Shown: piece after piece, positions 32,994-61,840 of the stretch
Layout of the letters: each line of letters begins with the position of its first letter
How positions within the stretch are numbered: position 1 is the first letter of the stretch
DNA from: a virus
DNA: 64,000 nt
Strand: one strand, 5' to 3'
Virus record (IMG/VR): IMGVR_UViG_3300020421_000007
Span: 1 to 64,000 of that record
Notes under the pieces: generated by a model
Told to the model about the DNA's origin: nothing
Databases searched by the model: none
The model's input: the letters and a program-made list of their open reading frames with translations, nothing else
Position numbers and translations under genes: made by a program

Positions 32994-35900
32994 ATGAGCT
33001 TAGATTTTAATGTAGATAAACAGATTTTATCTGGAACCGAACCTAAGATCTTAGGTTCCGAGAACTTTATTGTTAGATCTGGAAGTGGATCTGATGAGAA
33101 AGAAGTTTTCCGAACGCTTTTAGATCCATCAACTAAATTACCTAGACTTGGTATTAACAGGACTGGTAACAAAGTTGAGTCTATCACAGTAAATGAGAAC
33201 CAAGGTGGTACTGGATATACTGTCGTTCCCAACGTTGAGTTATCATATCCAGATCCGAATAATCTTGCTTTTGGTACTAGAGCTCTTGCTTCTGCATTAA
33301 TTAACAACGGTCAGGTTGTTGCTATTGTTGTTGATAATCAAGGAGCAGGATATACATCAGCACCAACCGTAACTATCACAGGTGGTGGTGGATCGGGTGC
33401 TGCTGCTACTGCTGTTCTAGACACTGTTGATTTTGAACTTGACATCAATGGTGCTATCAGAACATCTACTTCTATCATTTCTGATACGGCAAAAATTCTA
33501 AACCTGGATATTGATAATTTCATTACTCCAGATGCAAACTTTAGAGCACCAAATTTAAAAACTTGGGCAAATAATAGTGGTACTCCTTGGGCAGCAAATA
33601 TTGTTTTACAAAAAGGAGATTATTATTATAACGGAGGAAATATCTATGAAGTATTAGAAACAGGTCTTTCTGGTACTGTAGGTCCAGTTCACATAGACGG
33701 AATCGAACCCAATGGAGATGCTTCATTAAAGCATATTGGTTTTAGAGTCATTAATCCAGATCTTCCTTTATATAATGATACTGGAGATTCTGGAATTTTC
33801 CCTAGATCTATTACTCCAAAGTTAGGAGACAAATCAGATAAAATTGCTACTACAGAATACGTCCTCAACCTAGCAACGAATGACGTTGGTGGTCGTGTCT
33901 ATGTTTCACAATCTATTGGTAGTGATAACAATGATGGTAGATCTGCTGCTGCTCCTGTAAGAACAATTAAGAGAGCATGTCAGGTTGCTTCTGAAAGTGT
34001 TGGAGTTAAAGAAACAGTTATTATTGCTGGTGGTGATTATGTAGAAGATAATCCAATTTCTATTCCACCAGATTGTTCGATTGTTGGTGATAACCTTCGC
34101 TTGGTTATTGTTCGTCCTGCTAATCCTGGCAAACACATCTTTAAATTTGGCGATAAAAACTACGTTATTGGTGTAACATTCAGGGATCAAATTAACTCTG
34201 CTGGTGATGCTGTAGCAACTTGGGACTTTGCTATGGTCTTCGACGACAAGCAAAGAGTTTATTTTGATAGAAATGCTGGTGGTGATTTTGGAAGAAGTTT
34301 TCCTATTGGTCACCAGATATTTGGTCCAGAAAAAATTAGAGTTACTTTCCAAACTAACACAGGAACAAATCAATTATTAGTTGGAGAAACTGTACGAGGT
34401 GTTAACACTGGTGCTGTTGGTACAGTAACATCAGTAACTTTTGATGAGACAGACGCCAATGAACCAGATGCTTTTGTAAATGGTTCTATAGAAATTGATA
34501 TTGTCAGTGGTTCGTTTAACCTTGGAGAAACTTTTGAATATGAAATTGGTGCTGCTCCAAACATAACCACATTTGAATTTGTTGCTGTAGGACTTAAATC
34601 TATTCGAGCAGAGGGTGAAGTTGTATCCACTGGAATGGATCTAACAAATACCTTATCAATTGCTAGAATTGATACTACACTACAAGGTACAGCAGAAGTT
34701 TCTCAAAATGGTTTTGGATCTGAAACAGAAGGAAATGCCGAAGATCTTGGTGGTATTGTTATCTACACAAATGAATTACTTGGAAGAGATAATATACACG
34801 ATTTCCAAAACGGTGATGAGGTTATCATTAGTGGTCTTCCATCTTCAAACCCAGATCTTTCTTTCTTAAATGGAAAACAAAGAATTTATAAGGTCTTAGA
34901 AGATGCTGATGGTCGTTCTAGAAGATTTGTAATTCCAAAGAAAACTACATATTCAAATGCTAATTACGTACCAGTATCAGCATCTGTCTCCCACTATGCC
35001 GATTACGTTACCCTTACACTTCTAAACTCCCCAAATAAATTTGAGAGAGCAAACTATGTTGCGAGAAGATATCAAGATGCTTGTAACTTAATTAGAAATA
35101 ACGCAGATTTTATTGCGGCAGAAGTAGTAGGTCAAGTCAATAAAGAATTTGCAAAAGAGTATTTTGAAGTATCTGCTGTAAATACTAATGCTAATACTTT
35201 CCAAGTATATACAACTCCAAACAATTTTGTACATACTTACGTAAGTGGAGGAACTGTTTCTTATGGAGGTCAAACTTTTACGGTAACAGATCTAGATTAC
35301 AGTAATATTAGTGGCATCGGTACTATTACATTAAATAGTTCTCCAAACTTTACAGATGGTCAAACTGTAAAAATTGAAGGAATTATAGTTTCTTGTACAG
35401 TTAATGGAGTAACATCACAGAAAGAATATCCAAGTTTTAATATTCCAATTGGTGATTATAAGTGTACTAGAGACCTTAAGATTATTATCCATTCCCTGTT
35501 AATGGATTTGGAATACGGAAGTAATGATAATGTTATTGAAGCAGCAAAGAGATATATTGTTGGAAATCAAATTGACTTTGTTGATAAAGAAATTATTCAA
35601 ACAGTAAGAGCAATTGAATACACAAGACAATTGTGTATCCTTGCCATGAGAAATTGGAGAGTAGGAACAGGACTTGTAACAGAACCCATTTATGTTCCTA
35701 AGTATGCAACAGGTGTAGCAAGATATTTTGATGATACTGTAATTACAACTACTGCTGGTGTAAATGCGGATGGATCAGCATCTGATGGAACAGCATGTGC
35801 TGATGTTAAATCAGCAATTGATACATTAGCATACTTATTTGTTGATGTTCTTGCTAACAATGCTTCGGGAACATTATTAGATGCTGCATATTTGATCGCA

Positions 35901-38900
35901 AGAAACAGAGATCTTATTGTTGATCAAGCGTTAATAGATGCTCAAATTACATATCCTTCATTATCTTTAGGAGTTCTAGGAGAATATAAGTGTAGAAGAG
36001 ATAGTAACATAATTTTAACCAATGTAATTCGAGATTTAGTTCTAGGTGGTAATGCTGGAATTGTTACTGCCGCTGAATCTTATTATACTGGTACAGAACT
36101 TACAGGTCTTCCAGCAAATGAAGTTGCTGCTACAATCTATGCCTTTGGTAAAGTTAAAGATTACGCTATTGACGCAATGCGTAATTGGACTGATGGAACA
36201 GCTGCTTCAGCTCCTGTGCTTGCCACAGCAACTAATGCTACTTACAACTCAAATACAGGAGATGTAACTGTTACCATTGCTGATCCAGCAACAGCATTGA
36301 CTACCAGTGACAGAGTTGCCTTTAAAGAAGGTGCTATGACTTGGACATGTTCATCGAATGGTGGTGGAGATCTGGCAAGTCCTACATTCCAAGATAGAAA
36401 TAACGGAAGAAGTCTTGAAATTATTTCTGTAAGTTCTTCCAGTGGATCTACAACATTTACTTTTAACGTTGGTGATGCTGGTTCTGTACAGGGTGTTGCT
36501 CACACATTTGTTAGTGGATTGGCAAATGGTGTTGTTCTTATCTATGAACCACTTGCTGCTAATTCATCTTCTATTCCAAGATATGATGATTGGAATATTC
36601 TTCCAGATCCAAGTGATCCTAATTGTGCTACTGTTGCTTCTGCTATCACAACATCTTTTGAACTGTTGGAAGATATTTTAGATGGAACTACTGCTCCTGG
36701 AGGAACAGTAAAAACATTTGGAACTCTATATGATACCACAAATATTATTAATTACGCATCAACAACGTTATATGATGCGAACAATGATAGAATTACTCCA
36801 ACTGCTGTATATGATGATCTCCCAATTATTGAGGCATCTCCATACACTCAAAACTCCTCAATCATTTCTTTCTTAGGTGGTGGCGGATCTCTAGTTGATG
36901 GTTCTAAAGTTAAGAGTCCAAACTGTCCTTTCCCTGGTTTGGAACCAGATGGAAGCGCATCGTTCCCCAATCAAGGTAAGTCGATGGTTGCTTCGGCATT
37001 CACGATTGTTTCATTTGGTGGCACTGGATACAAAGTTGTAGAAGATGGATATACACAACTTGTATCTGTTTTTGTTATTTTCTGTGAAGATGGTATTCTT
37101 TGTGAAACTGGTGGTTATGCGTCAGTTACTAACTCAGCAACTAACTTTGGTACATTTGCTTTAAGAGCAACTGGATTTAGAAAAGATCCATACACCTTTG
37201 ACGTTGGTCAAATTGTTGGTGTAAGTTCTTCTACTGGAACAAATAGAACTCAATTTAGAGTAAGTGGTCTTGGCAGAGAACCATTAGAGCATTACATTGT
37301 CAAAATTGACGGATATAAAAATCACAATCCAGATATTGAATTTTTCGTTGAAACTGTAGAACAAGTAACAGTTGGTCCTCCTTTTGAAGCATTACTAACA
37401 TTAGAAAGTGGTTCTGGTGGAGCAGCTGAATTTGAAGATGTAAATAACCCTGGAGTAATTGTAAGTAATTCTTTAGCAGAATTTAGTGGAGTTACTCTAA
37501 GATTACATAGACCATCTATTGTTAACTCTTCTTCCCACACCTGGGAATTTGCTGGTTCTGGTACTAACTACAATGCTCTACCTGAGAACGGTGGTACTAA
37601 GATTGAAGCAAACGAGCAAGTACCACAGAACTATGGTCGTGTTTACTGTTCTGGTACTGACGAACTTGGTGACTTCAAGGTTGGTACGTTCGCTAAGATT
37701 GAGAACAGAACTGGTGCTATTACCTTCACAGGTACTGTTACGATCTCGGAAGTTGAATTCTTGAAACTGAAAGGTGGCGACGTTGTTGTTACTGGTTTCG
37801 ATGCATCCAACACACTTGGTGGCGCTAACTCTACCGACTCTAAACTACCTACACAGAAGGCAGTTAAGGATTACATTACTAACAACCTTGGTCCTTATCT
37901 CAACAAACCATATTCCACAAACGCTGTTCCTAGAGCACTAGTCGAACTTACAGATTCTGGTAAAATTTCTATTGACCAGATTCCAGCACTCAGACCTTTT
38001 AGTGTCTTCACTGTTGCCGATCAAGCAGAAAGATTAGCACTAGAAGGAGCACTTGCTGGTGACATTGCTATTCAGCAAGACAACAATGTCTCGTTCATTC
38101 TAAACAATGACCTGAGTAGTTTGTTTGTTGGTTTCCCAATCGACTCCAATTTAGTATTCAACACAGGAGATATCTACACTGGTTCTAATACGGGTGGTAG
38201 AATCCAAGCAACTGAATATAGACAGGGTGTTGTATATCAATTAAATATTACTGATGCTGGTTCTGGATACACATCAGCACCAACCGTTACAATTAACCAT
38301 GCTGGCAATGCTCCATCCGTGGAAGCAAAAGCAGTAGCAACCATCGCAAATGGTCAAGTTGTTACACTAACTTTAATTACGTTTAACAGTTACATTGGTG
38401 GTCTTGGTTATGACGCTCAACCAACAGTAAATATCGCTGCTCCTGGTGGTGGTGGAACAACTGCGGTTGCCAGTGCTCTAATTGAAAGTAGAGTATACGG
38501 TGATATTGTTAACAACATTAAGATTGACGATACTGATAGTATTGATGATAGCGATTCTCCCGCAAATACTGTTTCTATTAATAGAGTAGTTAACACATCA
38601 TCGAACATTGCTAGCAACTGGGTATCTCTATCTGCCACTCAAATTTCTGCTACAGATATTACATCTGGTATTATTTCTACTTCCAGACTAGCATTAAATT
38701 CATCTGCAGCAAACTCTTTCACCTTCTTAAGAGGAGATCAAGCATATGCTCCTGCTGTTCAGTCATTTAAAGCAGCAGAAACAAGATACTTTGCTATCTT
38801 GTCTAGTCAAGCAAACAATGGTTCATCACAATTAGTCTTCCCGACTAATGCTGATGTACTAAAAGGACATGAAGTAAAAGCAACTGTAAATGGTATTCAA

Positions 38901-41633
38901 GTAAATACTACAATTTCTGTAGTTGTAACTGCTGCTGGATTTACTACTATCACACTGAATAATCCAGTCAATCAAAACATTCCTGCAGGAACTGTTATTG
39001 AATTTGAGAGAAGTGCTTCTCCACTTACACTAGAATCTAGTTTCACGCAAGGTAATTTTGTAGACGATATTGTTATTGTTAATGGTGGATCTGGATACAC
39101 AAATAGTCAATACTTTGATGTTTCCATCGATGGTGGAACTGGAACAGGTTTAAAAGCAAATATTATTGTTGCTAATGGAGAAGTAACAGAACTTACTGTT
39201 ACTGATGGTGGTAGTGGATATAGTGCTGACTTTAGTGTTACTCCACTTCCAGCACAAATTGGCGCTGGATCTGGTTTAGTTCTTGCTGCTAAGTTAAGCA
39301 CTCAGAACAAACAATACGCAAATGTTTCTATTGATGTTAACAGAGTAACAGATGCTACTATTTCGTCTGATTTGTTTGGAACAGTTGGTGTTGCTAGATT
39401 CTTAAAATCGCAGTTTGAAATTGGTGAAGTTGGAAACGGATCTGTAAAACTTAAAACTGGTTCCGATTCTGGACTAGACGCTGACCTTCTTGATGGTGCC
39501 CAAGGTGTTTTCTATACAAATGCTAGCAACCTTTCAGCGGGTACTGTTCCTATTGAAAGAATGTCTGGTACTTATAATATCAGTATTTCTGGTCAATCTG
39601 GTAACACTCTACGTTTAATTTCATCTACTAACAACCCAACATCTAGTCCAGATCCTGATACTTTCTCTACAGGTATTGTTGCCAACACTCTAAACAATAC
39701 TGCTACATCACTATCTGATGGTGGATCTAGAGCACTTATCATGACTCTGAGGAACTTTGGTTCCAGTACGGATGCTACTGGTGGTGGCGCTAGACAATTA
39801 GGATTTACAGATAATGATAATATGTGGATCCGTGGTTCTGGATCTACATTAACATCATGGGGTACTTGGTATAAGATCTGGAGTTCTGGTAACGATGGTG
39901 TTGGTTCTGGATTAGATGCTGATAGACTTGATAACAAACAAGGATCTTGGTATCAGAATGCATTAAACATTAACACAGGAACTTTATCTGATAATAGATT
40001 ACCAATTTATCAAACTCATAAGTATTTTGAAAATCAGTTAAGCATTAGAGCTGCCGCTGGAAATCCAAGATATAGAATTTATGTTGAGGGACAACTACTA
40101 ACCACTTCACCATTCCTTGCTGGTCAGCAAGTTAATTTATATGATTCAAATGCTCAAGGAACTGGTACTATTTTAATTAGTGCTATTCCCACAAATGTAG
40201 ATAGTAATGATGCCACTAATAATTATTCTATCATCGAAGGTGTACTTCAAACTGGTACATTTACTGGAGCAATTGCCATTGGTACTACAGCAGTTTCTGT
40301 TCCCTTCCAAGACTTCAGTCTAGATGATGCTGGAACATTTGAAGTTAACAAACTTTATAGTGCTTCAGGTACTGGTATTCTTGCTCTTGGTAGGGTTGAT
40401 GGTGTTGCTGCGACAAGTCCAGCAATTCACTTTAGATCTAGTCTAACTCCTGCTACTGGTGGATATAACGTTGCTCTTACTGCTACTGGTGGAGGAACTA
40501 CACTAGGATCAGGAACTCTTAACGCTACAGTTGCTAACGCTGATGGTTTCACCATTAATAATAACGTTATCTGGAATGCTGGTAACATTACATTTGCTTC
40601 TAATAACGTTGTTAATACCGCAGTTAAACGTGACGCTTCTGGCAACTTTGCCGCTGGAACAATCACTGCAAATATAACTGGTGCTTCTTCACTGAACGTT
40701 TTGAAATCAGGCGATACCATGACTGGTAACCTGCAGTGGTCTCAAACTGATCGTGGTCTTGTTTGGGGATTCAATACTGATGGTGCTTCAATTAAGTTCT
40801 ATAATACTGGTAATGCTGATACCAATTCAAGATTAGAATTTAACGTTAATGATGATGCCAATGAGTTCTTCCGTTGGACTGGAACTGTGGGTGGAACTGC
40901 CAGAGAATTCATGAAGTTGGTTCCAGCATCTACTGATTACAATGGCAGATTATCTATCCGTGGTATTACTACAATTGAAGCAAATCATACAGGAAGTGAT
41001 CCATATGCTCAGTTAGTTGTTAAGGGTAGAGGAACTGGTGCTTCTTCATATACTGGCATTGTTCTAGATAATCCCGCAAGTCTACAATCTCATATTAGAT
41101 TTGCTGATAATGGAAGTTTGAAGTGTCAACTTAGATGGCACAATGGAACAACTCAAGATAACAAACTTAAAATTTATTCATGGATCACTAGTAGCGATTT
41201 TGTTACCTTTGATGCTGCTCAAGGAAACATGGGTGTGGGTACAACTTCACCAAGTTCTAATTATAAATTACAAGTTGCTGGAGCATTTGCTGCCACCAGC
41301 AAGTCGTTCTGTATTGAGCACCCAACTAAAGAGAACCACAACCTCGTCTACGGATCTCTGGAGGGTCCTGAGCACGGTGTATACGTTCGTGGTAAGGCAA
41401 GTAAGGTTATTGAACTTCCAGACTACTGGACCGCTCTTGTAGACGAGAACAGCATTACAGTTCAACTAACACCAATTGGTAACCATAGAGCATGGGTTGA
41501 GAAGATCGAAAACAATAAGATCTTCATCAATGGTGGAGAGTCGTTCTACTTCGTTCAGGCAACACGTAAGGATATTCTACCACTAGAGGTAGAAGTTGAA
41601 CTACCTACTGAGGAAAACGAAAATGGCAATTAG
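32994..41633 (+). CDS. Giant tail-fibre protein with beta-helix-like and repeated helical modules
   Basis: A 2879-residue protein. Residues 60-145: GxGY repeats (GAGYTSAPTVTITGGG). About 298-400: a parallel beta-helix-like start (GRVYVSQSIGSDNNDGRS, IKRACQVAS, DCSIVGDNLR), as in pectate-lyase-fold fibres. About 690-960 and 965-1235: two copies of the DAxxLI/CxRD/GGN/AMRNW helical module. Then GSGYTSAPTVTI repeats, the fibre motif GLDADLLDG (near 2160) and its relative GLDADRLDN. The C terminus has YGSLEGPEHGVYVRGKASK and ELPDYWTALVDE, a conserved end domain of cyanophage fibres that may be a trimerisation or chaperone domain. Probably the main host-binding fibre. No enzymatic residues could be verified. 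Confidence 0.8.
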   Translation: MSLDFNVDKQILSGTEPKILGSENFIVRSGSGSDEKEVFRTLLDPSTKLPRLGINRTGNKVESITVNENQGGTGYTVVPNVELSYPDPNNLAFGTRALASALINNGQVVAIVVDNQGAGYTSAPTVTITGGGGSGAAATAVLDTVDFELDINGAIRTSTSIISDTAKILNLDIDNFITPDANFRAPNLKTWANNSGTPWAANIVLQKGDYYYNGGNIYEVLETGLSGTVGPVHIDGIEPNGDASLKHIGFRVINPDLPLYNDTGDSGIFPRSITPKLGDKSDKIATTEYVLNLATNDVGGRVYVSQSIGSDNNDGRSAAAPVRTIKRACQVASESVGVKETVIIAGGDYVEDNPISIPPDCSIVGDNLRLVIVRPANPGKHIFKFGDKNYVIGVTFRDQINSAGDAVATWDFAMVFDDKQRVYFDRNAGGDFGRSFPIGHQIFGPEKIRVTFQTNTGTNQLLVGETVRGVNTGAVGTVTSVTFDETDANEPDAFVNGSIEIDIVSGSFNLGETFEYEIGAAPNITTFEFVAVGLKSIRAEGEVVSTGMDLTNTLSIARIDTTLQGTAEVSQNGFGSETEGNAEDLGGIVIYTNELLGRDNIHDFQNGDEVIISGLPSSNPDLSFLNGKQRIYKVLEDADGRSRRFVIPKKTTYSNANYVPVSASVSHYADYVTLTLLNSPNKFERANYVARRYQDACNLIRNNADFIAAEVVGQVNKEFAKEYFEVSAVNTNANTFQVYTTPNNFVHTYVSGGTVSYGGQTFTVTDLDYSNISGIGTITLNSSPNFTDGQTVKIEGIIVSCTVNGVTSQKEYPSFNIPIGDYKCTRDLKIIIHSLLMDLEYGSNDNVIEAAKRYIVGNQIDFVDKEIIQTVRAIEYTRQLCILAMRNWRVGTGLVTEPIYVPKYATGVARYFDDTVITTTAGVNADGSASDGTACADVKSAIDTLAYLFVDVLANNASGTLLDAAYLIARNRDLIVDQALIDAQITYPSLSLGVLGEYKCRRDSNIILTNVIRDLVLGGNAGIVTAAESYYTGTELTGLPANEVAATIYAFGKVKDYAIDAMRNWTDGTAASAPVLATATNATYNSNTGDVTVTIADPATALTTSDRVAFKEGAMTWTCSSNGGGDLASPTFQDRNNGRSLEIISVSSSSGSTTFTFNVGDAGSVQGVAHTFVSGLANGVVLIYEPLAANSSSIPRYDDWNILPDPSDPNCATVASAITTSFELLEDILDGTTAPGGTVKTFGTLYDTTNIINYASTTLYDANNDRITPTAVYDDLPIIEASPYTQNSSIISFLGGGGSLVDGSKVKSPNCPFPGLEPDGSASFPNQGKSMVASAFTIVSFGGTGYKVVEDGYTQLVSVFVIFCEDGILCETGGYASVTNSATNFGTFALRATGFRKDPYTFDVGQIVGVSSSTGTNRTQFRVSGLGREPLEHYIVKIDGYKNHNPDIEFFVETVEQVTVGPPFEALLTLESGSGGAAEFEDVNNPGVIVSNSLAEFSGVTLRLHRPSIVNSSSHTWEFAGSGTNYNALPENGGTKIEANEQVPQNYGRVYCSGTDELGDFKVGTFAKIENRTGAITFTGTVTISEVEFLKLKGGDVVVTGFDASNTLGGANSTDSKLPTQKAVKDYITNNLGPYLNKPYSTNAVPRALVELTDSGKISIDQIPALRPFSVFTVADQAERLALEGALAGDIAIQQDNNVSFILNNDLSSLFVGFPIDSNLVFNTGDIYTGSNTGGRIQATEYRQGVVYQLNITDAGSGYTSAPTVTINHAGNAPSVEAKAVATIANGQVVTLTLITFNSYIGGLGYDAQPTVNIAAPGGGGTTAVASALIESRVYGDIVNNIKIDDTDSIDDSDSPANTVSINRVVNTSSNIASNWVSLSATQISATDITSGIISTSRLALNSSAANSFTFLRGDQAYAPAVQSFKAAETRYFAILSSQANNGSSQLVFPTNADVLKGHEVKATVNGIQVNTTISVVVTAAGFTTITLNNPVNQNIPAGTVIEFERSASPLTLESSFTQGNFVDDIVIVNGGSGYTNSQYFDVSIDGGTGTGLKANIIVANGEVTELTVTDGGSGYSADFSVTPLPAQIGAGSGLVLAAKLSTQNKQYANVSIDVNRVTDATISSDLFGTVGVARFLKSQFEIGEVGNGSVKLKTGSDSGLDADLLDGAQGVFYTNASNLSAGTVPIERMSGTYNISISGQSGNTLRLISSTNNPTSSPDPDTFSTGIVANTLNNTATSLSDGGSRALIMTLRNFGSSTDATGGGARQLGFTDNDNMWIRGSGSTLTSWGTWYKIWSSGNDGVGSGLDADRLDNKQGSWYQNALNINTGTLSDNRLPIYQTHKYFENQLSIRAAAGNPRYRIYVEGQLLTTSPFLAGQQVNLYDSNAQGTGTILISAIPTNVDSNDATNNYSIIEGVLQTGTFTGAIAIGTTAVSVPFQDFSLDDAGTFEVNKLYSASGTGILALGRVDGVAATSPAIHFRSSLTPATGGYNVALTATGGGTTLGSGTLNATVANADGFTINNNVIWNAGNITFASNNVVNTAVKRDASGNFAAGTITANITGASSLNVLKSGDTMTGNLQWSQTDRGLVWGFNTDGASIKFYNTGNADTNSRLEFNVNDDANEFFRWTGTVGGTAREFMKLVPASTDYNGRLSIRGITTIEANHTGSDPYAQLVVKGRGTGASSYTGIVLDNPASLQSHIRFADNGSLKCQLRWHNGTTQDNKLKIYSWITSSDFVTFDAAQGNMGVGTTSPSSNYKLQVAGAFAATSKSFCIEHPTKENHNLVYGSLEGPEHGVYVRGKASKVIELPDYWTALVDENSITVQLTPIGNHRAWVEKIENNKIFINGGESFYFVQATRKDILPLEVEVELPTEENENGN

Positions 41634-42279: not shown

Positions 42280-42282
42280 CCA

Positions 42283-43050: not shown

Positions 43051-43053
43051 ATA
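43046..43053 (+). promoter_or_regulatory. Late promoter TATAAATA
   Basis: A perfect late promoter overlapping the preceding stop, 23 bases before ATG 43076. Confidence 0.7.
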
Positions 43054-43075
43054 CTCAATAAAGGTCTAACTCAAG

Positions 43076-45076
43076 ATGGCGAATTCTGATAAGGACATCC
43101 TTATAACGCCCAATAGAGGCACAGCGAATATACCAGAAATTAGTTTTGTCGGACAAGATAATGCACCGATTAAACTTCGCGTACTTGATGACAACACGTT
43201 ATCCTTTGAAGGAAACTCGGGACAACTATTTTCTATTGATGATAATTTAACTACTGGAACAATATTTGCTGTTTCCGATATTAGTGGCGTACCATCAATT
43301 CAAGTTGATGCTAATGGAAGAATCGACATTGCCAGATATGGTGGATCATTAAATATCGGCAATAATAATAACACCACAGACAGAGCACTATGTGTTACTG
43401 GTGAGATAGCACTAACAACTATAAATTCAACACCAGCTGGTTTATGTTTCTGGGAAAGTGGAGATAATACTGGTACAGCACCAGCACAGATTTATTGGGA
43501 TGGACCTGGATATGCTGATAACAACAACTATCTTTCTCTCAGAACAAATAGTGCGGACAGATTAACAGTAACATATGCTGGTGCTGTTGGATTGGGCACC
43601 AACGCACCAAATAAAAAATTCCATCTTTATGGTGGTCATGGTGATACTTCCATGAGATTGACACTGCCATCAGGAAACAATGGTGCAGGAACTGGTGATA
43701 TTCATATGCAACTATGGGTATCAGAACCAGGAAGGACCTGGGATGGTGGTGGCATTGGTATGAATGTTACCAATTATTATACAACGTCATATCCATCATC
43801 TGCTAATGATCAATCAAATAATTATTTCCCACAACTGAATAGTGCCATCGGTCAAGCATATTTGAGATTTTTCCCTAATGGAGGAAGAATCGAATTCTCT
43901 ACGATGGACAATGATGGTACATCATATAGAGAACAAATCCATATGCTTAAAGGTGGCATTGGTATCAATACCACCACAGATGTCGGAAGCACTTACAAAT
44001 TAGTTGTTGGTGGTGATATTAATTTTACTGGTGAATTATATCAAAATGGAACAATTTTTGAAACTCTACCTCCACAAAGCGCAGCTACAATTGGCGCAGC
44101 ATTAAGATCTGATGGCACCAATGCTTTCTGGGATATTGGTGATCCATGGGGTGGTAACGGTACTGATGATCTTCCACACGCAGTAGAAGACAGATATAGA
44201 GTTGGATTCCAAATTAGCAGAGGATATGCTATGGCGGGATATAAGAACAGCACATCTTATAAGAATGTATGTTCTCTCGACATGGCAAATAATACCATCA
44301 CAAATCATGGAGACATTTTAACAAATGGTCAAGGTTATTGTGCGGGAGCACAAAACTTAAGCATGTACGCATACGTTATGATTGCGGTCAATGGTGTTGG
44401 TGGTACTGGATCTACTGTATCTAAGATCAATATGAATACATCATCAAACGCAAATACAACATCTATTAATAATAATAGATCTGCTACAAGTTTGATGAGG
44501 AGAGACTTTAAGTATGCGTATGTTTATGGTGGAGGAGACAGTAGACCAGATAGATTTAATTTAACTAATGACACTTCTGCTTTATCTCCAAATGGTAACC
44601 CAGCAGGTGGTGAAAATAATCCAGCAGGTGGTTTTGGTGCTACCTATGGATGGACTAGAAGAAATGGAGCATACTTATTCAGTTGGGCTGCTGAAACTTA
44701 TACTGCTTGGCCAAGTTCGCCTGGAACCGATGGATCGAATAAAACCTTAAATGCCAGACATGGATTTAATTATTGGAATACTGCTGGTGGATATAGAACT
44801 TCATCAAACCTTTCTAAGAGAAGCGCCCTTACAGGATCTGAGGCAACTCAGGTTGGTAAATTTGAATGTGGAGAAGAAACTTTCTTTACTGGTATGAACC
44901 GTGGATACATGTGTGGTATGTATGATGGTGCTCAAAAGAACACAGGAGCAGTTCTAAATTATTCTGCTGAAACATTTACTGCTGATAGTAATATAGATAG
45001 ACAAGGACCACCTGGATCTGCTTCTGGAGCTGGTGCTGAGTTTGGTACAGTTCTAACAGGTTACGACGGAGTATAA
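43076..45076 (+). CDS. Tail fibre protein
   Basis: A 666-residue protein starting MANSDKDILITPNRGT. Residues 1-330 are fibre-like beta modules (TGTIFAVSDISGVPSIQVD, GAVGLGTNAPNKKFHLYGG, YKLVVGGDINFTGELYQNG), a pattern common in marine phage fibres. The C-terminal half (about 360-666) is Gly-, Asn- and Tyr-rich with repeated YVYGGGD-, GYMCGMYDG- and GYKNST-type blocks, suggesting a blade or beta-barrel receptor domain. It has its own late promoter and is followed after 2 bases by a possible assembly gene. Confidence 0.75.
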   Translation: MANSDKDILITPNRGTANIPEISFVGQDNAPIKLRVLDDNTLSFEGNSGQLFSIDDNLTTGTIFAVSDISGVPSIQVDANGRIDIARYGGSLNIGNNNNTTDRALCVTGEIALTTINSTPAGLCFWESGDNTGTAPAQIYWDGPGYADNNNYLSLRTNSADRLTVTYAGAVGLGTNAPNKKFHLYGGHGDTSMRLTLPSGNNGAGTGDIHMQLWVSEPGRTWDGGGIGMNVTNYYTTSYPSSANDQSNNYFPQLNSAIGQAYLRFFPNGGRIEFSTMDNDGTSYREQIHMLKGGIGINTTTDVGSTYKLVVGGDINFTGELYQNGTIFETLPPQSAATIGAALRSDGTNAFWDIGDPWGGNGTDDLPHAVEDRYRVGFQISRGYAMAGYKNSTSYKNVCSLDMANNTITNHGDILTNGQGYCAGAQNLSMYAYVMIAVNGVGGTGSTVSKINMNTSSNANTTSINNNRSATSLMRRDFKYAYVYGGGDSRPDRFNLTNDTSALSPNGNPAGGENNPAGGFGATYGWTRRNGAYLFSWAAETYTAWPSSPGTDGSNKTLNARHGFNYWNTAGGYRTSSNLSKRSALTGSEATQVGKFECGEETFFTGMNRGYMCGMYDGAQKNTGAVLNYSAETFTADSNIDRQGPPGSASGAGAEFGTVLTGYDGV

Positions 45077-45078
45077 AA

Positions 45079-45831
45079 ATGAGAAGTTATTATCTTACAA
45101 ATTCCAGAGCAGTATCTAAACTGTTTTCTTTTAAAACGCATGGAGAAATCCTTAATTGGAGATTCTTTTCTATTGATTATCTCGACAAAGATAATTTAAA
45201 GGAACTAGCTCCACGATGTATTGAAGTGGAAAAGGATGTTGCTATATTTGGCATTAAATCTTGGGGAGAAACTAGAGATGAAATTTCTGTATATAACACA
45301 GAATGTGAAGTAGATAATGAATTTGAAGAGTTTGATGTTGTAGCAGCAAATCCTAAAGATACTCAAGGAAAAATTAAAATTCCTATGAGTGATAAAAGAA
45401 AGGGTGTTGTTAGAAAAGCAATGAAATTAATTGCTAAAGTTATTATTGAAGATGAATATGATGTTAAATATCGTAGTTACTTGGCAAAAACTTCCGCCTT
45501 AGAAAGAGACACATGGAAATATCAGGTAGAAGATACTGATTTTAGAAACTCTCTTGCTGATATTAAAGGACGCGAAAGAGAAGAATTTGGAAACATTGTT
45601 TTTAGTAGTGGAAACTCCCATGAGGACTATATAAAAACATTATACATAGAGTGTCAGTCATTAAAACAAAAATTTTATGATGCTGTGACTATTGAAGATC
45701 TAAGTGTTTTATATGAAGATCATTTCAATCTTCCCATGCAGTCCCATCTTGCTATTAAGTTGGGTAGAGAAATTGTTAATGCTGATAAACCAAACGAAAG
45801 ACTAGATGTTGGAGTTGGTTTAAATTTTTAA
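45079..45831 (+). CDS. Uncharacterised protein, possibly fibre assembly
   Basis: A 250-residue, charged, mostly helical protein. The segment KTSALERDTWKYQVEDTDFR weakly resembles the TWxxQ helix of DUF4376-type tail-fibre assembly proteins. The rest (YYLTNSRAVSKLFSF, KLIAKVIIEDEYDVKYRS) is unfamiliar. It follows a fibre gene by 2 bases, which fits an assembly chaperone, but the resemblance is weak. No catalytic motif seen. Confidence 0.5.
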   Translation: MRSYYLTNSRAVSKLFSFKTHGEILNWRFFSIDYLDKDNLKELAPRCIEVEKDVAIFGIKSWGETRDEISVYNTECEVDNEFEEFDVVAANPKDTQGKIKIPMSDKRKGVVRKAMKLIAKVIIEDEYDVKYRSYLAKTSALERDTWKYQVEDTDFRNSLADIKGREREEFGNIVFSSGNSHEDYIKTLYIECQSLKQKFYDAVTIEDLSVLYEDHFNLPMQSHLAIKLGREIVNADKPNERLDVGVGLNF

Positions 45832-45849
45832 ATTAATTTTTGAATCGCC

Positions 45850-46650
45850 ATGGCAATTGATGCAAATGAATTAGATATTGATACTATTGTAGATATCGCT
45901 AAAAAATGGGCAAGTGGTATGTCACCTCAGCAGTGTGACATGTATGTAATTCATTCTCAAGTTACAAAAGACAGGCAGGTTAAACAATGTCTGATGGAAA
46001 TTGAGAATAGAAATCACAATTTACAAAAACTTGATATTGAAAAGAGGAAGCACGAAGTAAATCTTAGAAAGGTTACTGCTTTATATGAGGCAGAAGAAGA
46101 TCCTGATGAAAAGGAACTTTTTCAAATTGAACTCGATAGTATGGCTTTAGATTTTGATGTGTTTAAACGCAGAAAAATTACACAAGAAAAAGAAATTCAA
46201 AGTTTCTTTCAGTGGTTGCTTGATGAAGGGTATACTGCTGAAGAATTAGAAAAAAGATTGGAGTATGATCCCGAAGAAGAAAGAAAGTATTGGATTTCTA
46301 GAATGGGTAAACAAGCAGCTCTTGATGTTGTATTCCAAGGAAGAATTGGAACAGGCAATTTAGATTCAATTGCCATGATGAAAGAGACAGATCAGCAAGC
46401 AATTTTAGAAATTGCTATGCAATATTCTGCATTGTATAATGTAAGTATGAAAAAAATTCAAGAGAGACTTCTTCCATACATTCAACAAATGGAAGAAAGT
46501 TCCACTGGAGCATTACCAACATTCCATGGCATCGATGATAATCTTGAAATTGGTTTATTGAGTGAATTAAAAACTATTAAAGGTGAATTGAATGCCGCCA
46601 AACCATCCACACCAAGTCTTCAGCTTACCTATAAACCCAAAGCTTCCTGA
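45850..46650 (+). CDS. Coiled-coil protein of unknown function
   Basis: A 266-residue, highly charged, helical protein. Residues about 45-120 have heptad-like spacing (ENRNHNLQKLDIEKRKHEV). A second block, YWISRMGKQAALDVVFQGR, is likely conserved. It could be a scaffold, a fibre-assembly chaperone or an adaptor for the enzymes that follow; nothing in the sequence decides. Its last 59 bases overlap the start of the next gene, which suggests translational coupling. Confidence 0.55.
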   Translation: MAIDANELDIDTIVDIAKKWASGMSPQQCDMYVIHSQVTKDRQVKQCLMEIENRNHNLQKLDIEKRKHEVNLRKVTALYEAEEDPDEKELFQIELDSMALDFDVFKRRKITQEKEIQSFFQWLLDEGYTAEELEKRLEYDPEEERKYWISRMGKQAALDVVFQGRIGTGNLDSIAMMKETDQQAILEIAMQYSALYNVSMKKIQERLLPYIQQMEESSTGALPTFHGIDDNLEIGLLSELKTIKGELNAAKPSTPSLQLTYKPKAS

Positions 46651-48295
46651 AGAATTTGTAGAAAATATTTTTATTCCCTTTCTAATTGAGTATAGGGAAT
46701 ATATTTTTGATTTATATTTTACCTGTAGAATGCCTCCTTTTACACAGGACGCTATGGGAGATCTTTTTGGTAATCCAAAAGATACAACTTTTAGTGCCTT
46801 GTATATTTCAAACAAGACAGGTATTCCTTTGTCTGCTACATTTAATAATATCTACATTAGACCAGATCAAGAAACTTTAGATTTGTTTATTAAAAATTTT
46901 AAGTATGTTTATGATAAGGGTGTGAGAATTGCTACTATTCCACACACCTCTTGGTTGATGACTGGACAAATTCAAAAAGCATTTCCAGATCTTTTTATTA
47001 AAAATACTATTTTGCGAGAAGTTACAAGACCAAATGAAATTGTATCTCTAGCAAAAGCAGGTTTTCACTATATCAATTTAGATAGAGATTTGATGCGTGA
47101 TAGAGATCAACTTGTAGCAATTAAAGAAGCAAAAGACTACTGTGAATCTATTGGCAAACCAGTAAAGATTTCTTTGCTTGCCAATGAAAATTGCTGGGGT
47201 GGGTGTCCCATTATGCCAGAACATTATCATTATAACAACACCAGAAGTGGAGACAATCCAGAATATTTTGCTGATGCTATTAGTAGAATCTCATGTTCTT
47301 CTTGGGACATTCACGATTCTTCATCTCCCCTAAAAGCAGCAATTCTACCTCCATGGAAAGAAGACTGGGAGGAATTTATTGATTTGGGTATTGATGTTTT
47401 TAAAATGCATGGTAGGGAGTCTGCCACAAGACTCAAAGAAAGCATGGACATCATTGAGAACTGGGCAGATGAAAAAGAATATTTGTTTCCAAATTTTGAT
47501 GAGTTTATTCATGACATCCACATCGAAAATAAACCTATCAATATATGGAGAGAAAAAATTAAATCATGTAAATTTGATTGTTGGAAATGTAATTACTGCG
47601 AATCTGTAATTGAATCTAGAAAGAAAAAATATCACAGAGACAATCATAAGTATGTCTATCATGTTTTAGATTCTTTAGATAAATCAGGAAGATACGAATC
47701 TAAATTTGATGCTGAGTCTTACGATATCGAAGGATTAACTTCTGATAGAGTTAGGCATTTTTTAAATAACCTTTGCTCTATAGAAGAAGCAAAGTATTTG
47801 GAGGTGGGTTCATATGCTGGCAGCACTTTTTTTGCTGCTACTATGAACAATGATATTCCATCATTTGCTGTCGATAATTATATTTGTAATGTATCTCCAG
47901 CAAGATTAGATGTTAAATGGAATGGATACTCTGCTCCAAAAAAGAAGTTCTTAAACAACAGAAAAAAATATAAGTCGGGAAAACTTATCGATAAACATAT
48001 TCAAGATGTTAACTTGTTTGATCTAAAAAACACTAAAGTTAATGTTGTATTTTATGACGGAAGTCATGAATATAAAGATCAACAGAAAGCATTAGAAACA
48101 GTTTTACCACTAGTTGAAGATACATTTATTTTAGTTATCGATGACGCAAATTTCAAAGATGTGGTAGAATCTGCTAAGCAGTTTATATCTGATAATAAAT
48201 TGACCTCTTTATATGAAAACCAACTTCTCACTACTAAGTATGAAGATTCTACCAGTTGGTGGAACGGTTTGTTTGTGGCGGTTTTAAAAAAATGA
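46592..48295 (+). CDS. U32-peptidase-like barrel fused to a SAM-dependent methyltransferase
   Basis: A 567-residue fusion. Residues 1-320 look like a TIM barrel of the U32 type: repeated beta/alpha units (GVRIATIPHTSWL, GFHYINLDRD) and LGIDVFKMHGRES, which resembles the U32 LGVDSFKIEGR block. Cysteines occur in ENCWGGCPIMPEH and in CKFDCWKCNYC (about 326-336), suitable for an Fe-S cluster. Residues 370-567 are a class I methyltransferase of the Methyltransf_24 kind: YLEVGSYAGSTF (motif I, about 402), VFYDGSHEYKDQ and FILVIDDAN. Known U32 proteins take part in oxygen-independent hydroxylations of ubiquinone, tRNA or rRNA; the substrate here is unknown. The start at ATG 46592 overlaps the preceding gene by 59 bases. 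The U32 call is moderate, the methyltransferase call good. Confidence 0.7.
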   Translation: MPPNHPHQVFSLPINPKLPEEFVENIFIPFLIEYREYIFDLYFTCRMPPFTQDAMGDLFGNPKDTTFSALYISNKTGIPLSATFNNIYIRPDQETLDLFIKNFKYVYDKGVRIATIPHTSWLMTGQIQKAFPDLFIKNTILREVTRPNEIVSLAKAGFHYINLDRDLMRDRDQLVAIKEAKDYCESIGKPVKISLLANENCWGGCPIMPEHYHYNNTRSGDNPEYFADAISRISCSSWDIHDSSSPLKAAILPPWKEDWEEFIDLGIDVFKMHGRESATRLKESMDIIENWADEKEYLFPNFDEFIHDIHIENKPINIWREKIKSCKFDCWKCNYCESVIESRKKKYHRDNHKYVYHVLDSLDKSGRYESKFDAESYDIEGLTSDRVRHFLNNLCSIEEAKYLEVGSYAGSTFFAATMNNDIPSFAVDNYICNVSPARLDVKWNGYSAPKKKFLNNRKKYKSGKLIDKHIQDVNLFDLKNTKVNVVFYDGSHEYKDQQKALETVLPLVEDTFILVIDDANFKDVVESAKQFISDNKLTSLYENQLLTTKYEDSTSWWNGLFVAVLKK

Positions 48296-48942
48296 AACTA
48301 TACGATCTTTTTCCTAATCCAATTTTTGGAATAGAATATCCGCATCATAAAAAATTGAAAGAAATAATTTTCAATGTGATGGAAGAAAACAAAGATAACT
48401 TTGAGGTCAATGGACAGTCTTCTAATCTACAACATCTTAATAACAAATTAAGTGAATCTATTTTACACGAAGAACCATTTGAAAGTTTTAGAGAATGGGT
48501 AGAAGAGTCATGTTCGGATTATGTAAGTGATTGTCTTGGATATAATTTGCCAGACAAAATGATGGTTACTGACAGTTGGTTAAATAAATGTGACAAGGGT
48601 GGATCTCAACATCCACACTATCATTCAAATGCATACATTTCTGGAACTTATTATGTAAACTTTGAAGAAGGTCATTCTCCTCTTATGTTTAATAAAAGAT
48701 CAGCATTACTTTTTCCAAATCATCCGACGATTGTTCTGGCAGAAAATGATGATTTTATCACTAAGTATAATACTGACTCTGCTGTATATCCAGAAGAGGG
48801 AGAACTATATTTGTGGCAGTCTCAAATGACACATAGTGTGCCTGAGAATGGAAAAGATAATCGTGTAAGTCTTTCTATGAATTTTATGCCAAATGTTGTA
48901 AGTAATACAAGATATGGTTTTAGAGTGGAGTATGCGAAGTGA
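48292..48942 (+). CDS. 2-oxoglutarate/Fe(II)-dependent oxygenase
   Basis: A 216-residue protein of the putative 2OG-Fe(II) oxygenase kind (2OG-FeII_Oxy_5). The signature HPHYHSNAYISGTYYVNF provides the first metal ligands, and WQSQMTHSVPENGKDNRVSL provides the distal His and the Arg that binds 2-oxoglutarate. These enzymes hydroxylate or otherwise oxidise a substrate using O2. The start at ATG 48292 overlaps the previous stop; a longer start at 48256 overlaps more. Such oxygenases are common in cyanophages next to structural genes. The substrate is unknown. Confidence 0.85.
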   Translation: MKLYDLFPNPIFGIEYPHHKKLKEIIFNVMEENKDNFEVNGQSSNLQHLNNKLSESILHEEPFESFREWVEESCSDYVSDCLGYNLPDKMMVTDSWLNKCDKGGSQHPHYHSNAYISGTYYVNFEEGHSPLMFNKRSALLFPNHPTIVLAENDDFITKYNTDSAVYPEEGELYLWQSQMTHSVPENGKDNRVSLSMNFMPNVVSNTRYGFRVEYAK

Positions 48943-49724
48943 TTGACTACAATGATATCGTAGAGAGATTCCCAGAAAATAAATGGGATATTGGATTGCT
49001 TAAGGGGACAGAATACAAAAAAGTTTTGAACTCACCTGTAAAAGCAGCGTGTCATTTTAAAGGTGAGATGTTGACCAATCGTTTACAAGCACCTTACCAA
49101 TCAGATAACACTTTAGTCTTCGCTAGATTATCAGAACATGCTGCCGATTATTCTCTCTATGAAGAAGCGGCAAGTTATCTTTCAGATTACATTGAACAAG
49201 GAAAATGTGTTCAAGTATATGTAAATTTTAAAGAAGCGGCAATACAATCTGGACTTGGTGTTAGAGCTAAAAACTCTTTGATATACAATAAAAAATTTGG
49301 ATTTCAATGTAAGTTATGTGCATTTACATTTTTAGATGATCTAGCAAATGCCCCAGAACCACAAATAAACAAAGGACAATTAGATCTTTGTGAAGGGTGT
49401 GATGACTGTATCAAACACTGTCCAGCAAATGCTATCCATGAAGATTTTATTGATGGTAATGCTTGCGATACTTTTGTTGGAGTTGGAAATAGTTCAGATC
49501 AAATGTCAATCAAATGGTTTTGGTATGAGTTAGTTAAACCAAATATTCCTAAAGAAGTTGTTGAGTCTTGGAATACCTTGGAAGATTTTAAAAATATTGT
49601 TTGGGATAATGGGTATGAGATGACTCCAAATGGATTAATGAAAGATGGAGAAGTAATTCCTATGCCACTCTGTAGAATGTGTCAACAACAACCAAGATGT
49701 AGTAAAATACCTGTATTATTATGA
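48939..49724 (+). CDS. QueG-like iron-sulphur reductase (4Fe-4S ferredoxin type)
   Basis: A 261-residue protein starting at GTG 48939 (GTGA overlap with the previous stop). It contains GLGVRAKNSLI (about 108), like the GxGxxxKN segment of epoxyqueuosine reductase QueG, followed by a classic CEGCDDCIKHCP cluster motif (about 151-162) and a later CRMCQQQPRC group near the C terminus. QueG has two 4Fe-4S clusters and binds cobalamin; this protein is about 120 residues shorter and its second cluster looks degenerate. It may be an electron donor or a reductase for the neighbouring oxidative enzymes. True tRNA queuosine function is not implied. Confidence 0.7.
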   Translation: MIDYNDIVERFPENKWDIGLLKGTEYKKVLNSPVKAACHFKGEMLTNRLQAPYQSDNTLVFARLSEHAADYSLYEEAASYLSDYIEQGKCVQVYVNFKEAAIQSGLGVRAKNSLIYNKKFGFQCKLCAFTFLDDLANAPEPQINKGQLDLCEGCDDCIKHCPANAIHEDFIDGNACDTFVGVGNSSDQMSIKWFWYELVKPNIPKEVVESWNTLEDFKNIVWDNGYEMTPNGLMKDGEVIPMPLCRMCQQQPRCSKIPVLL

Positions 49725-50341
49725 TGTTAAATATTGGACCATGGCACGTCAATCCATGTTTTTCTTTACCAGTTACATCAGCTGACATAGATTCTAATGT
49801 AAGTTTTCTTCTAAAAACTATGTCTAGAAAAATGGAATGGATTGAGGACAATCCAGATACAGGAATTAATGGATTTTATTCTAAAAATAGAAACGTATTA
49901 GATTCTGATTTGTCAATGAAAGAAGGATTAACTTCTATCTGTAAAGATTATATCGTAAATGCTTTATCATATAACACAGATATTAAAATCACAACTTCTT
50001 GGTTTACAAAAACTTTAAAAGGTGGGCAGTGTGTGGAACATGCTCACTGCAACTCTTGGTTTAGTGCAGTTGTATATTTTGGGGACTATGATGAAAAATC
50101 AGCACCACTAGTATTTTCAGTTGATCCTCCACAAATATTAGTACCAACATCTATGCCAAATTTTTTAAACTCATACAACTTGACAATTGAGTCAGAAAAG
50201 AATAAAATAATTATATTTCCCAGTCGTTTAAGGCACAAAGTTATTACACACAATTCAAATACTCCTAGGTATTCTCTTTCTTTTAACATTATGCCTGTTG
50301 GAACAGTTGGGGAAGGAGACTCCAGTTACACATATAAATAA
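49721..50341 (+). CDS. Second 2-oxoglutarate/Fe(II)-dependent oxygenase
   Basis: A 206-residue protein related in pattern to the 48292 oxygenase: EHAHCNSWFSAVVYFGDY gives the proximal ligands, and FPSRLRHKVITHNSNTPRYS gives the distal His and the 2-oxoglutarate Arg. The ATGA start overlaps the preceding stop; an alternative ATG is one codon later. It closes the enzyme cluster. The late promoter of the next unit lies within its last codons. The substrate is unknown. Confidence 0.82.
   Translation: MMLNIGPWHVNPCFSLPVTSADIDSNVSFLLKTMSRKMEWIEDNPDTGINGFYSKNRNVLDSDLSMKEGLTSICKDYIVNALSYNTDIKITTSWFTKTLKGGQCVEHAHCNSWFSAVVYFGDYDEKSAPLVFSVDPPQILVPTSMPNFLNSYNLTIESEKNKIIIFPSRLRHKVITHNSNTPRYSLSFNIMPVGTVGEGDSSYTYK
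50333..50340 (+). promoter_or_regulatory. Late promoter TATAAATA
   Basis: A perfect late promoter overlapping the end of the oxygenase gene, 27 bases before ATG 50367. Confidence 0.7.
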
Positions 50342-50366
50342 TCACACACATCATTCTTTATTAAAA

Positions 50367-50564
50367 ATGGACACTGACGCCCTTAAGAAAAATTTTGTCG
50401 AACAACTAGAACAAGCAGATAAGCAAATTGCTGAGTTGGAAACAAACCTTGTAAAAGCTAGAGAGTACAAACTAAAATTACAGGGGGGTTTGGAAACTTT
50501 GGAACTCCTCAATCCATCGGAAGAAGAATCAGCAGAAACAGCGCCTACTGAAGTAGCAGAATAA
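50367..50564 (+). CDS. Small coiled-coil protein upstream of gp13
   Basis: A 65-residue protein starting MDTDALKKNFVEQLEQADKQ. Residues 5-50 form a continuous coiled coil, then an acidic tail (SEEESAETAPTEVAE). ATG 50367 is preferred because the longer in-frame start lies upstream of the late promoter. It is followed by a terminator. Conserved in position upstream of gp13 in cyanophages as I recall, with unknown function. Confidence 0.7.
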   Translation: MDTDALKKNFVEQLEQADKQIAELETNLVKAREYKLKLQGGLETLELLNPSEEESAETAPTEVAE

Positions 50565-50571
50565 CTATCAG

Positions 50572-50607
50572 ATCCCTTCTTCCTAAATAGGTAAGAAGGG
50601 ATTTTTT
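50572..50607 (+). terminator. Intrinsic terminator with a late promoter element in its loop
   Basis: ATCCCTTCTT (50572-50581) pairs with AAGAAGGGAT (50593-50602), followed by six T. The 11-base loop contains CTAAATA (50583-50589), a T4-type late element 25 bases before the gp13 start. Confidence 0.88.
50583..50589 (+). promoter_or_regulatory. Late promoter CTAAATA for gp13, inside the terminator loop
   Basis: CTAAATA at the same spacing from the start codon (25 bases) as other CTAAATA elements in this window. See the terminator entry for the structure. Confidence 0.6.
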
Positions 50608-50614
50608 GTGTGTA

Positions 50615-51415
50615 ATGGCATCTCCAAGTTCTAGATCTGAACTCATCACTTATTGTAAGAGGCAACTTGGTGAACCTGTTCTCCAAGTAAACATTGATGA
50701 TGAGCAAGTAAACAATGTAATTGATGATACGTATCAATTCTTTCAGGAGAACTGTTACAATGGTATGGAGAGGTGTTACCTAAGACACGAAATTAACGCT
50801 GATGATAAAACAAGATTTGATGGTAAAGTAACTACGACTGAAGGAACAACAAATTGGGAAGAGTCAACAAACTTTATTCCAATTCCAGATCACGTTGTAG
50901 GTATTACCAAAGTATATGGTTTAGTTAGTAATTCAATTCGCTCTAATCTCTTCGGTGTTGAGTATCAACTATATCTAAATGATCTGTATGCGTTTGGATC
51001 ACTTGATATTCTCAATTATTATATGCATAAACAATATCTAGAAACTCTAGACATGGTTATGAACAATGGTTCATTCCAACAGTTTAGATTTACACAACGC
51101 CGTGATCGTTTGTATCTTGATATCAATAAAGCATTTCTTAAAGAAGATACATTCTTAGTAATTGAAGCACATCGTTTACTCGATCCCACAGATGCTACAG
51201 AGATGAACAATGATATGTTTGTCAAAAAGTATGCTACTGCTCTTATGAAGAGACAGTGGGGTCAGAACTTGATCAAGTATAATAATGTTCAATTACCTGG
51301 CGGTGTTACCCTTAACGGTAGAGAGATCTACACAGACGCACTAGCAGAAATTGAGAAAATCGAAAGCGAAGTTCTCAGTAAGTATGCTGTTCCACCAATG
51401 GATATGATCGGATAA
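50615..51415 (+). CDS. 13: Neck protein gp13
   Basis: A 266-residue protein (T4 gp13 about 309). It opens MASPSSRSELITYCKRQLG, and the internal blocks NNVIDDTYQFFQENCYNG and RFTQRRDRLYLDINKAFL are characteristic of gp13 in cyanophages. gp13 forms the neck collar that joins head and tail. It is followed by gp14, gp15, gp16, the same order as T4. The ATG at 50615 is preferred over a TTG three codons earlier that sits in the terminator T-run. Confidence 0.93.
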   Translation: MASPSSRSELITYCKRQLGEPVLQVNIDDEQVNNVIDDTYQFFQENCYNGMERCYLRHEINADDKTRFDGKVTTTEGTTNWEESTNFIPIPDHVVGITKVYGLVSNSIRSNLFGVEYQLYLNDLYAFGSLDILNYYMHKQYLETLDMVMNNGSFQQFRFTQRRDRLYLDINKAFLKEDTFLVIEAHRLLDPTDATEMNNDMFVKKYATALMKRQWGQNLIKYNNVQLPGGVTLNGREIYTDALAEIEKIESEVLSKYAVPPMDMIG

Positions 51416-51416
51416 A

Positions 51417-52538
51417 ATGCCTACCAGTCCCTACTTTCCAACTTACTACGCAGGTCACAGTGGCGAACAAGGTCTTGTTCAGGATCTTGTGGATGAACAA
51501 ATTAAACTGTTTGGTACAGACATATACTATATCCCTAGAGTAGTTTTACAAGACAACACTCTAGATGAAGTTAGATACTCAAAATATCAGGAGCAGTTTC
51601 AAATTGAGATGTTGCTTCAGAACGTCATGGGTTTTGGTGACAATGCTGAGTTCATCTCTAAATTTGGTTTAAGAATTACAGACGAGATTATCTTTCGTGT
51701 GTCTACAAGACGATGGACAGAAGAGGTAGCAGAGCATAATCCCAACCTAACAGTAGATAGCAGACCTAATGAGGGAGATCTATTGTATTTCCCATTAACA
51801 CAAGACATCTACGAAATCAAATTTGTTGGCAAGGAAGAACCATTCTTCCAGTTTGGTAAGATTCAATTCTATGCTATCACTGCTGAAATCTATGAGGTTG
51901 GTAGTGATAATTTTGACACTGGAGTGGCAGAAATTGATGATGTAGAGCAACTCTTCGATACTTCTATTAAACTCTTTATGGATCCTGGTGGTACAGGAGA
52001 CTTCACTGTAGGTGAGGAGGTAGTTGGTGATGAATTTCTTGCAAAAGCTACAGCAACTATTACTGGTGACGCTGTAACTGCTATAACTATTAATGATGGT
52101 GGTTCACATTATAAAGTTGCTACACCACCATCAGTAACTATTACAGGAGACGGAAGTGGTGCTACTGCGACTGCTACAGTCAGTTCTACTGGTATTGTTA
52201 ATGGTATTACTATCACAAGTGGTGGGAGCGGTTATAGTTCTGCGCCTACTGTTGTCATTGACTACTCCCCCAAAGACAATAGAGCAGAAGTCAAGTCCTG
52301 GGATAGCACAACCAGAGCTCTTGAAGTCTACAACAGAACAGGAACCTTTACTACTGCTGAAGTAATTACTGGTCTAACCTCTGGTGCCAAGTGGAGTCCT
52401 GAGACATTCGACACTCTAAATAATACAAATAGCAACTACGATCAAAACAGACAGATCGAAGATAGTGCGGATAATATTATTGATTGGACGGAAGGAAATC
52501 CGTTTGGTGAATATGGTAATCAGACAGGTAGCTTCTAA
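51417..52538 (+). CDS. 14: Neck protein gp14 carrying an inserted repeat domain
   Basis: A 373-residue protein (T4 gp14 256). Residues 1-190 match the gp14 family pattern (QGLVQDLVDEQIKLFGTDIY, EFISKFGLRITDEIIFRVS, RRWTEEV). About 192-325 contain an insertion of beta repeats: GGSHYKVATPPSVTITG and GGSGYSSAPTVVIDYS, the same family as in the fibre proteins. The last 45 residues (IDWTEGNPFGEYG) look like the normal gp14 end. gp14 with gp13 forms the neck. It starts 1 base after gp13 and its stop overlaps gp15. Confidence 0.92.
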   Translation: MPTSPYFPTYYAGHSGEQGLVQDLVDEQIKLFGTDIYYIPRVVLQDNTLDEVRYSKYQEQFQIEMLLQNVMGFGDNAEFISKFGLRITDEIIFRVSTRRWTEEVAEHNPNLTVDSRPNEGDLLYFPLTQDIYEIKFVGKEEPFFQFGKIQFYAITAEIYEVGSDNFDTGVAEIDDVEQLFDTSIKLFMDPGGTGDFTVGEEVVGDEFLAKATATITGDAVTAITINDGGSHYKVATPPSVTITGDGSGATATATVSSTGIVNGITITSGGSGYSSAPTVVIDYSPKDNRAEVKSWDSTTRALEVYNRTGTFTTAEVITGLTSGAKWSPETFDTLNNTNSNYDQNRQIEDSADNIIDWTEGNPFGEYGNQTGSF

Positions 52539-61815: not shown

Positions 61816-61840
61816 AAATTTGATATCTAGAGGTAAAAAC

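Follow-up and report, generated by a model that had tools for sequence, protein, structure and literature searches.

A paired GxGY repeat shared by six virion proteins of a cyanomyovirus and apparently exchanged as a cassette within its neck protein, gp14

Domain sharing among phage structural proteins, neck proteins included, has already been described (PMC10684548), and promiscuous Ig-like and other shuffled domains provide cases in which one small beta domain is common to functionally different virion proteins, again with the neck among them (PMC10684548, PMC9230969). The extra domains of the T4 sheath protein sit at a distance from the tube, and according to an earlier description the sheath can form without them (PMC9230969); in the Dpo31 tailspike a protruding Ig-like domain, D3* (residues 434-536), has been solved (PMC13317679). 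Here we analyzed a GxGY repeat in a stretch of 64,000 nt (hereafter the window) of a virus record of 83,089 bases (IMGVR_UViG_3300020421_000007). We propose, with a probability of roughly two in three, that this repeat builds a promiscuous beta domain, kin to T4 gp18 domain I and D3*, that recombination moves as a cassette and that is likely a non-essential surface add-on. Under this proposal at least six virion proteins of one cyanomyovirus would carry the domain, recombination would move it on and off gp14, and its pairs would space or stabilise the large wedge and fibre proteins and decorate the neck.

The gp14 core encoded in the window shares 94% identity with its counterpart in Synechococcus phage ACG-2014e, and we therefore take the virus to be a cyanomyovirus; its virion proteins were assigned by family scans (Table 1). 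The GxGY motif occurs where the first-pass annotation had placed it (GAGYTSAPTVTI at 33342, GSGYTSAPTVTI at 38259 and GSGYSSAPTVVI at 52224). The repeat family that it proposed is real, but the span that it gave, 33200-52300, was too narrow and omitted the copies at 8805-30966. A unit is about 39 amino acids long (modal spacing 38-40) and consists of an AxAxV strand, a VxxIxV strand, the GxGY turn, a PxVxI strand and a glycine-rich loop. Conservation is complete or almost complete at the GxGY glycines and tyrosine, at the proline that follows and in the glycine-rich loop ahead of AxAxA.

Table 1. Virion protein genes, GxGY copies and gp14 parts in the window, with the evidence for each (profile values are E-values unless marked otherwise).
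Feature	Position in window	Strand	Evidence
gp7-like protein	7182-17498	+	family scan
gp7-like, first GxGY cluster, residues 542-688	8805..9245	+	bacterial-only profile 7.6e-13, 4.7e-11; A3 profile 3.8e-27
gp7-like, GxGY pair	10698..10862	+	bacterial-only profile 2.4e-9
gp7-like, three tandem GxGY units	11838..12152	+	bacterial-only profile 7.6e-11, 9.1e-13
gp7-like, GxGY pair	15882..16037	+	bacterial-only profile 1.4e-9
gp8	17560-19371	+	family scan
gp8, divergent GxGY pair	18484..18660	+	bacterial-only profile 1.1e-5; A3 profile 5.3e-5
DUF4815 protein	19468-27582	+	family scan
DUF4815 protein, divergent GxGY pair	21667..21876	+	bacterial-only profile 2.2e-5
DUF4815 protein, GxGY pair	25288..25506	+	bacterial-only profile 5.6e-13
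1555-aa virion protein	27775-32442	+	family scan
1555-aa protein, GxGY units	28072..28281	+	bacterial-only profile 1.7e-4
1555-aa protein, GYxxGD-type units	28573..28803	+	bacterial-only profile 0.0015; PF23843 2.8e-4, PF22639 4.8e-4 (below curated cut-offs)
1555-aa protein, GxGY pair	30796..30966	+	bacterial-only profile 1.7e-7
2879-aa fibre	32994-41633	+	family scan
2879-aa fibre, N-terminal GxGY pair	33165..33413	+	bacterial-only profile 6.7e-21; AF2 pLDDT 86-92; alignment A2
2879-aa fibre, second GxGY pair	38223..38471	+	bacterial-only profile 8.1e-16
2879-aa fibre, third GxGY pair	39060..39242	+	bacterial-only profile 2.5e-14
gp14	51417-52538	+	family scan
gp14 core, T4 neck protein fold, residues 1-182	51417..51962	+	PF11649 9.5e-21; T4 gp14 fold match Z 9.0
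gp14 GxGY pair, optional cassette, residues 207-285	52035..52271	+	bacterial-only profile 2.4e-10, 1.4e-13; AF2 pLDDT 82-95
gp14 C-terminal module AEVKSWD...SGAKW	52284..52454	+	alignment with repeat-less gp14; profile 8.6e-25

The repeat is biased in composition (rich in G, T, A, V and S), the low-complexity filter of BLAST masks part of it and BLAST matches cover less than half of the query, all of which could be expected if low-complexity glycine- and threonine-rich sequence had converged with no common domain. Shuffled proteins of the same composition score near zero, however. When a hand-seeded profile was trained without each protein in turn and compared with composition-matched shuffles, the omitted protein was recovered at 50.7 bits for gp14 (best shuffle 8.7), 59.9 bits for the 2879-aa fibre (7.1), 48.6 bits for the gp7-like protein (11.3) and 18.7 bits for the DUF4815 protein (7.3). 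In a stricter test, a profile trained exclusively on bacterial proteins (396 repeat segments) gave E-values of 3.5e-43 for the gp7-like protein, 2.4e-41 for the fibre, 5.4e-20 for gp14, 2e-14 for the DUF4815 protein, 1.7e-7 for the 1555-aa protein and 1.1e-5 for gp8, against 0.033 for the best of 280 shuffled proteins. The domain was thus found in exactly six proteins, with no convincing match to this profile elsewhere among the open reading frames of both strands of the window; the window's own gp18 (61820-63745) gave no match to the repeat profile. In addition, the PHROG profiles of the gp14, wedge, hub and fibre families cross-match at the same residues. The copies in the six virion proteins are homologous, and a convergent low-complexity origin has virtually no chance of being correct, since the shuffles and the search with the bacterial-only profile already refute it.

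The predicted structures also speak against chance composition or unrelated folds in gp14 and the fibre. AlphaFold modelled the gp14 pair and the N-terminal fibre pair, which is kept in 44 relatives (alignment A2), confidently as blocks with three strands per unit (Table 1), and the strand order is the same in both; the comparison concerns strand order, and the remaining parts of both models are less certain. The repeat would be one half of a small beta domain, with two units of about 39 residues folding into a compact six-stranded domain of about 80 residues. Because the unit count of gp14 is 0, 2 or 4 in 303 of 311 unique proteins (eight exceptions), the functional block seems to be the pair. 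Units need not be even in number, though, given the long tandem arrays of up to 19 units in bacteria. Right after the N-terminal fibre pair, residues 193-252 (window 33570-33749) form a modelled domain that matches the C-terminal part of the cyanophage Pam1 tailspike (7EEA, Z 10.9, 1.1 Å, 60 residues) and, in the fold search, chitin-binding domains of chitinases.

Two fibre copies match at 24 of 26 DNA positions, as the first-pass annotation had noted in proposing a recent duplication. Since identity drops to 11/30 in the flanks on either side, and since the peptide, when coded twice independently under the codon usage of the window, yields a match this good in 4.6% of draws (P = 0.046), a recent duplication is unsupported by this match, and we rejected it.

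The earlier suggestion of a spreading module is well supported, as gp14 shows. The pair is present in gp14 of the window, S-RIM2 and ACG-2014a and absent from that of S-RIM44 and S-P4. We collected 405 complete gp14 genes (311 unique) and placed 61 representatives in a tree of the core domain, on which the presence or absence of the pair changes at least 10 times, with at least six changes forced by well-supported branches; the state can differ even between genes whose cores are 95% identical. As the pair occurs in all three large gp14 clades and parsimony cannot separate gains from losses, these counts would also fit an ancestral cyanophage gp14 that carried the pair and lost it many times without horizontal exchange. 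Such vertical inheritance appears quite unlikely for three reasons. First, between repeat-bearing gp14 proteins of two distant clades the hinge is 83%, the insert 72% and the C-terminal part 63% alike against 41% for the core, whereas repeat-less proteins of the same two clades lack such an excess, at 54% in the hinge and 49% in the C-terminal part against 42% in the core (each comparison sampled 11-23 pairs). Second, the flanks differ between states together with the pair, so that a bare, precise insertion or deletion is unsupported and allele exchange is preferred. Third, the site differs by clade: the ACG-2014f/S-B05-type clade has the units ahead of a C-terminal-module hairpin that is left intact, but in the other two clades the units split this hairpin, as in the window, where the pair interrupts the first hairpin (51987-52031). 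This difference was established by reading the sequences, because automatic sorting of insertion sites with a profile of this C-terminal module is unreliable for the two-unit clades, and it suggests more than one acquisition. Exchange of the pair by recombination as a cassette fits these sequence comparisons best. The C-terminal module itself follows the pattern GxFTxGExVxG...AEVKSWD...TGxF..GExxxGxTSGA (51987-52031 and 52284-52454) and, judged by eye, has similar stretches in the gp7-like and DUF4815 proteins and in the fibre; a profile search for it in the gp7-like protein reached only E ~0.1, at residues 1706-1777.

The module recurs outside gp14, not only across virion proteins but also in bacteria. 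With the A3 profile, we observed 8-24 matching stretches in each of 12 out of 12 cyanophage-type records and no match in T4, a Vibrio schizo-T4 phage or two Ackermannviridae. A search of genome collections with the repeat consensus as query located bacterial tandem arrays in Verrucomicrobiota, Planctomycetota, Bacteroidota and others. Arrays were also seen in secreted multicopper-oxidase-like proteins of Neobacillus and Geomesophilobacter (L517:3470-7846 and L562:377-6901), apparently inserted at one shared point that NYANSPLP and GIRKFVD flank. In a library of viral models, the fibre pair matched many phage proteins, including tail fibres, hub lysozymes and a P22 gp10-like head-completion protein (86 columns, 1.3 Å, 38% identity). 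The P22 gp10-like matches come from uncultured phages (BFVD A0A6J5SB35 and A0A6J5L2T0, 38% and 34% identity) and represent a second, unrelated type of neck protein that carries the domain. Repeat-bearing YHYH proteins are also among the viral fold matches, and the gp7-like wedge protein of the window contains a YHYH domain (PF14240, E 1.7e-30; residues 752-854, window 9435-9743) near its GxGY units. A protein of the giant virus Sylvanvirus (BFVD A0A3G5AH46) matches the fibre pair as well (85 columns, 47% identity), which raises the possibility that the domain also occurs outside phages and bacteria.

Regarding function, related viruses gain, lose and swap the domain even in gp14, the neck protein connecting head and tail, which gives it the look of a mobile surface accessory and not of a core component. 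By analogy with the additional domains of sheath proteins (PMC9230969), the likeliest role of the pairs is that of surface add-ons for spacing, stabilising or weak contact, and we infer that they would be exposed on the virion, act as spacers or stabilisers and be dispensable. The first-pass annotation had offered a generic spacer or a glycan-binding surface; the former is the likelier role. A specific binding role could nonetheless exist, and if the domain were a carbohydrate-binding module, its copies on fibres, wedge and neck would give weak multivalent attachment to host surface glycans. This would be in line with the reported weak similarity of D3* to sugar-binding domains (DALI Z 2.8-2.9; PMC13317679), the chitin-binding-like domain that directly follows the fibre pair and the adhesion role proposed for Ig-like phage domains (PMC9230969). 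In gp14, however, the invariant columns are nearly all structural (G, P, A, V and T, together with the tyrosine of GxGY) and show no polar or charged site that is conserved, which makes specific glycan recognition a minority view; the pair is, moreover, optional in gp14 and also sits in the neck, far from the fibres. We hence regard a carbohydrate-binding module as unlikely. It is quite unlikely that the gp14 pair is a selected, exchangeable adornment of the neck whose copies, in a ring around it, contact the host or another virion part and stand in for the T4 whiskers, with on and off alleles kept in phage populations by balancing selection.

The GxGY domain bears on the wedge and fibre proteins of cyanomyoviruses, which are very large and poorly understood. 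Much of their repeated content belongs to a single type of domain, for which the curated libraries that we used give no match above cut-off, and naming it makes these proteins parsable into domains. It would also link an abundant group of marine viruses to the T4 sheath and its surface domain. In addition, nearly identical gp14 cores occur both with and without the pair, which provides a natural on/off experiment for what surface beta domains do for a virion.

Among described systems, the pair is probably akin to domain I of T4 gp18 (PF22639; PDB 3FOA and 3FO8), though distantly, as judged from sequence and fold. Domain I is likewise an inserted beta domain (about 90 residues), with a GSNY(xx)GD motif in register with the GxGY of the window. 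The fibre pair aligns with gp18 residues 99-188 (Z 5.5, rmsd 2.8 Å, 75 residues, 19% identity), and the Klebsiella phage KP1 sheath is a further match; the fold matches of the gp14 model are filled by its core domain and barely sample the repeat region. Since a Z of 5.5 by itself may reflect a common arrangement, sequence tests were added. A plain HMM search did not raise T4 gp18 above shuffles. A profile-profile comparison with domain I of several T4-like phages scored 21.8, and none of 60 column-permuted controls exceeded 12.0, but the probability was only 25%. The Pfam family Gp18_dom_I matches a hand-written GYxxGD-type consensus at 7e-6. Its best native stretch in the window, in the 1555-aa protein, reaches 20.5 bits (E 4.8e-4), and no native stretch of the window attains the curated cut-off of 27 bits, which T4 and a Vibrio phage pass. 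In two cyanophage genomes (W05 and W08), the only weak matches of Gp18_dom_I fall on repeats found independently (alignment A3). The sequence similarity is very remote and, unlike domain I, which in T4 decorates the sheath only, the window copies lie in virion proteins other than the tail sheath protein. The GYxxGD-type units of the 1555-aa protein are the link to domain I and to DUF7210 (PF23843, 38 positions), which shares the unit length and the GYxxGD pattern; this family matches the 1555-aa protein weakly (20.8 bits at best, cut-off 27) and does not report the GxGYxxxP units of the window. The Dpo31 tailspike of the marine podovirus Carin-1 (PDB 8CK1 and 28LX) is the one solved protein reached by sequence (E 5e-4, residues 431-525), and was not among the matches listed for the fibre model in the fold search. 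Its D3*, like the window pairs, holds two GxGY units, in a protruding insert of a virion protein, but the carrier is a beta-helix tailspike, and the repeat goes undescribed by the authors, who call the fold Ig-like (PMC13317679). Like the promiscuous shuffled domains, the GxGY domain occurs in homologous form in six proteins of differing function, with cross-matching PHROG profiles, and its presence varies among close relatives. It differs from them in its two 39-residue halves, its GxGY signature and its on/off cassette in gp14. Our literature search for the GxGY motif strings found no paper on the motif, and the GxGY domain, which has mostly gone unannotated, is a new addition to the domains that phage structural proteins share.
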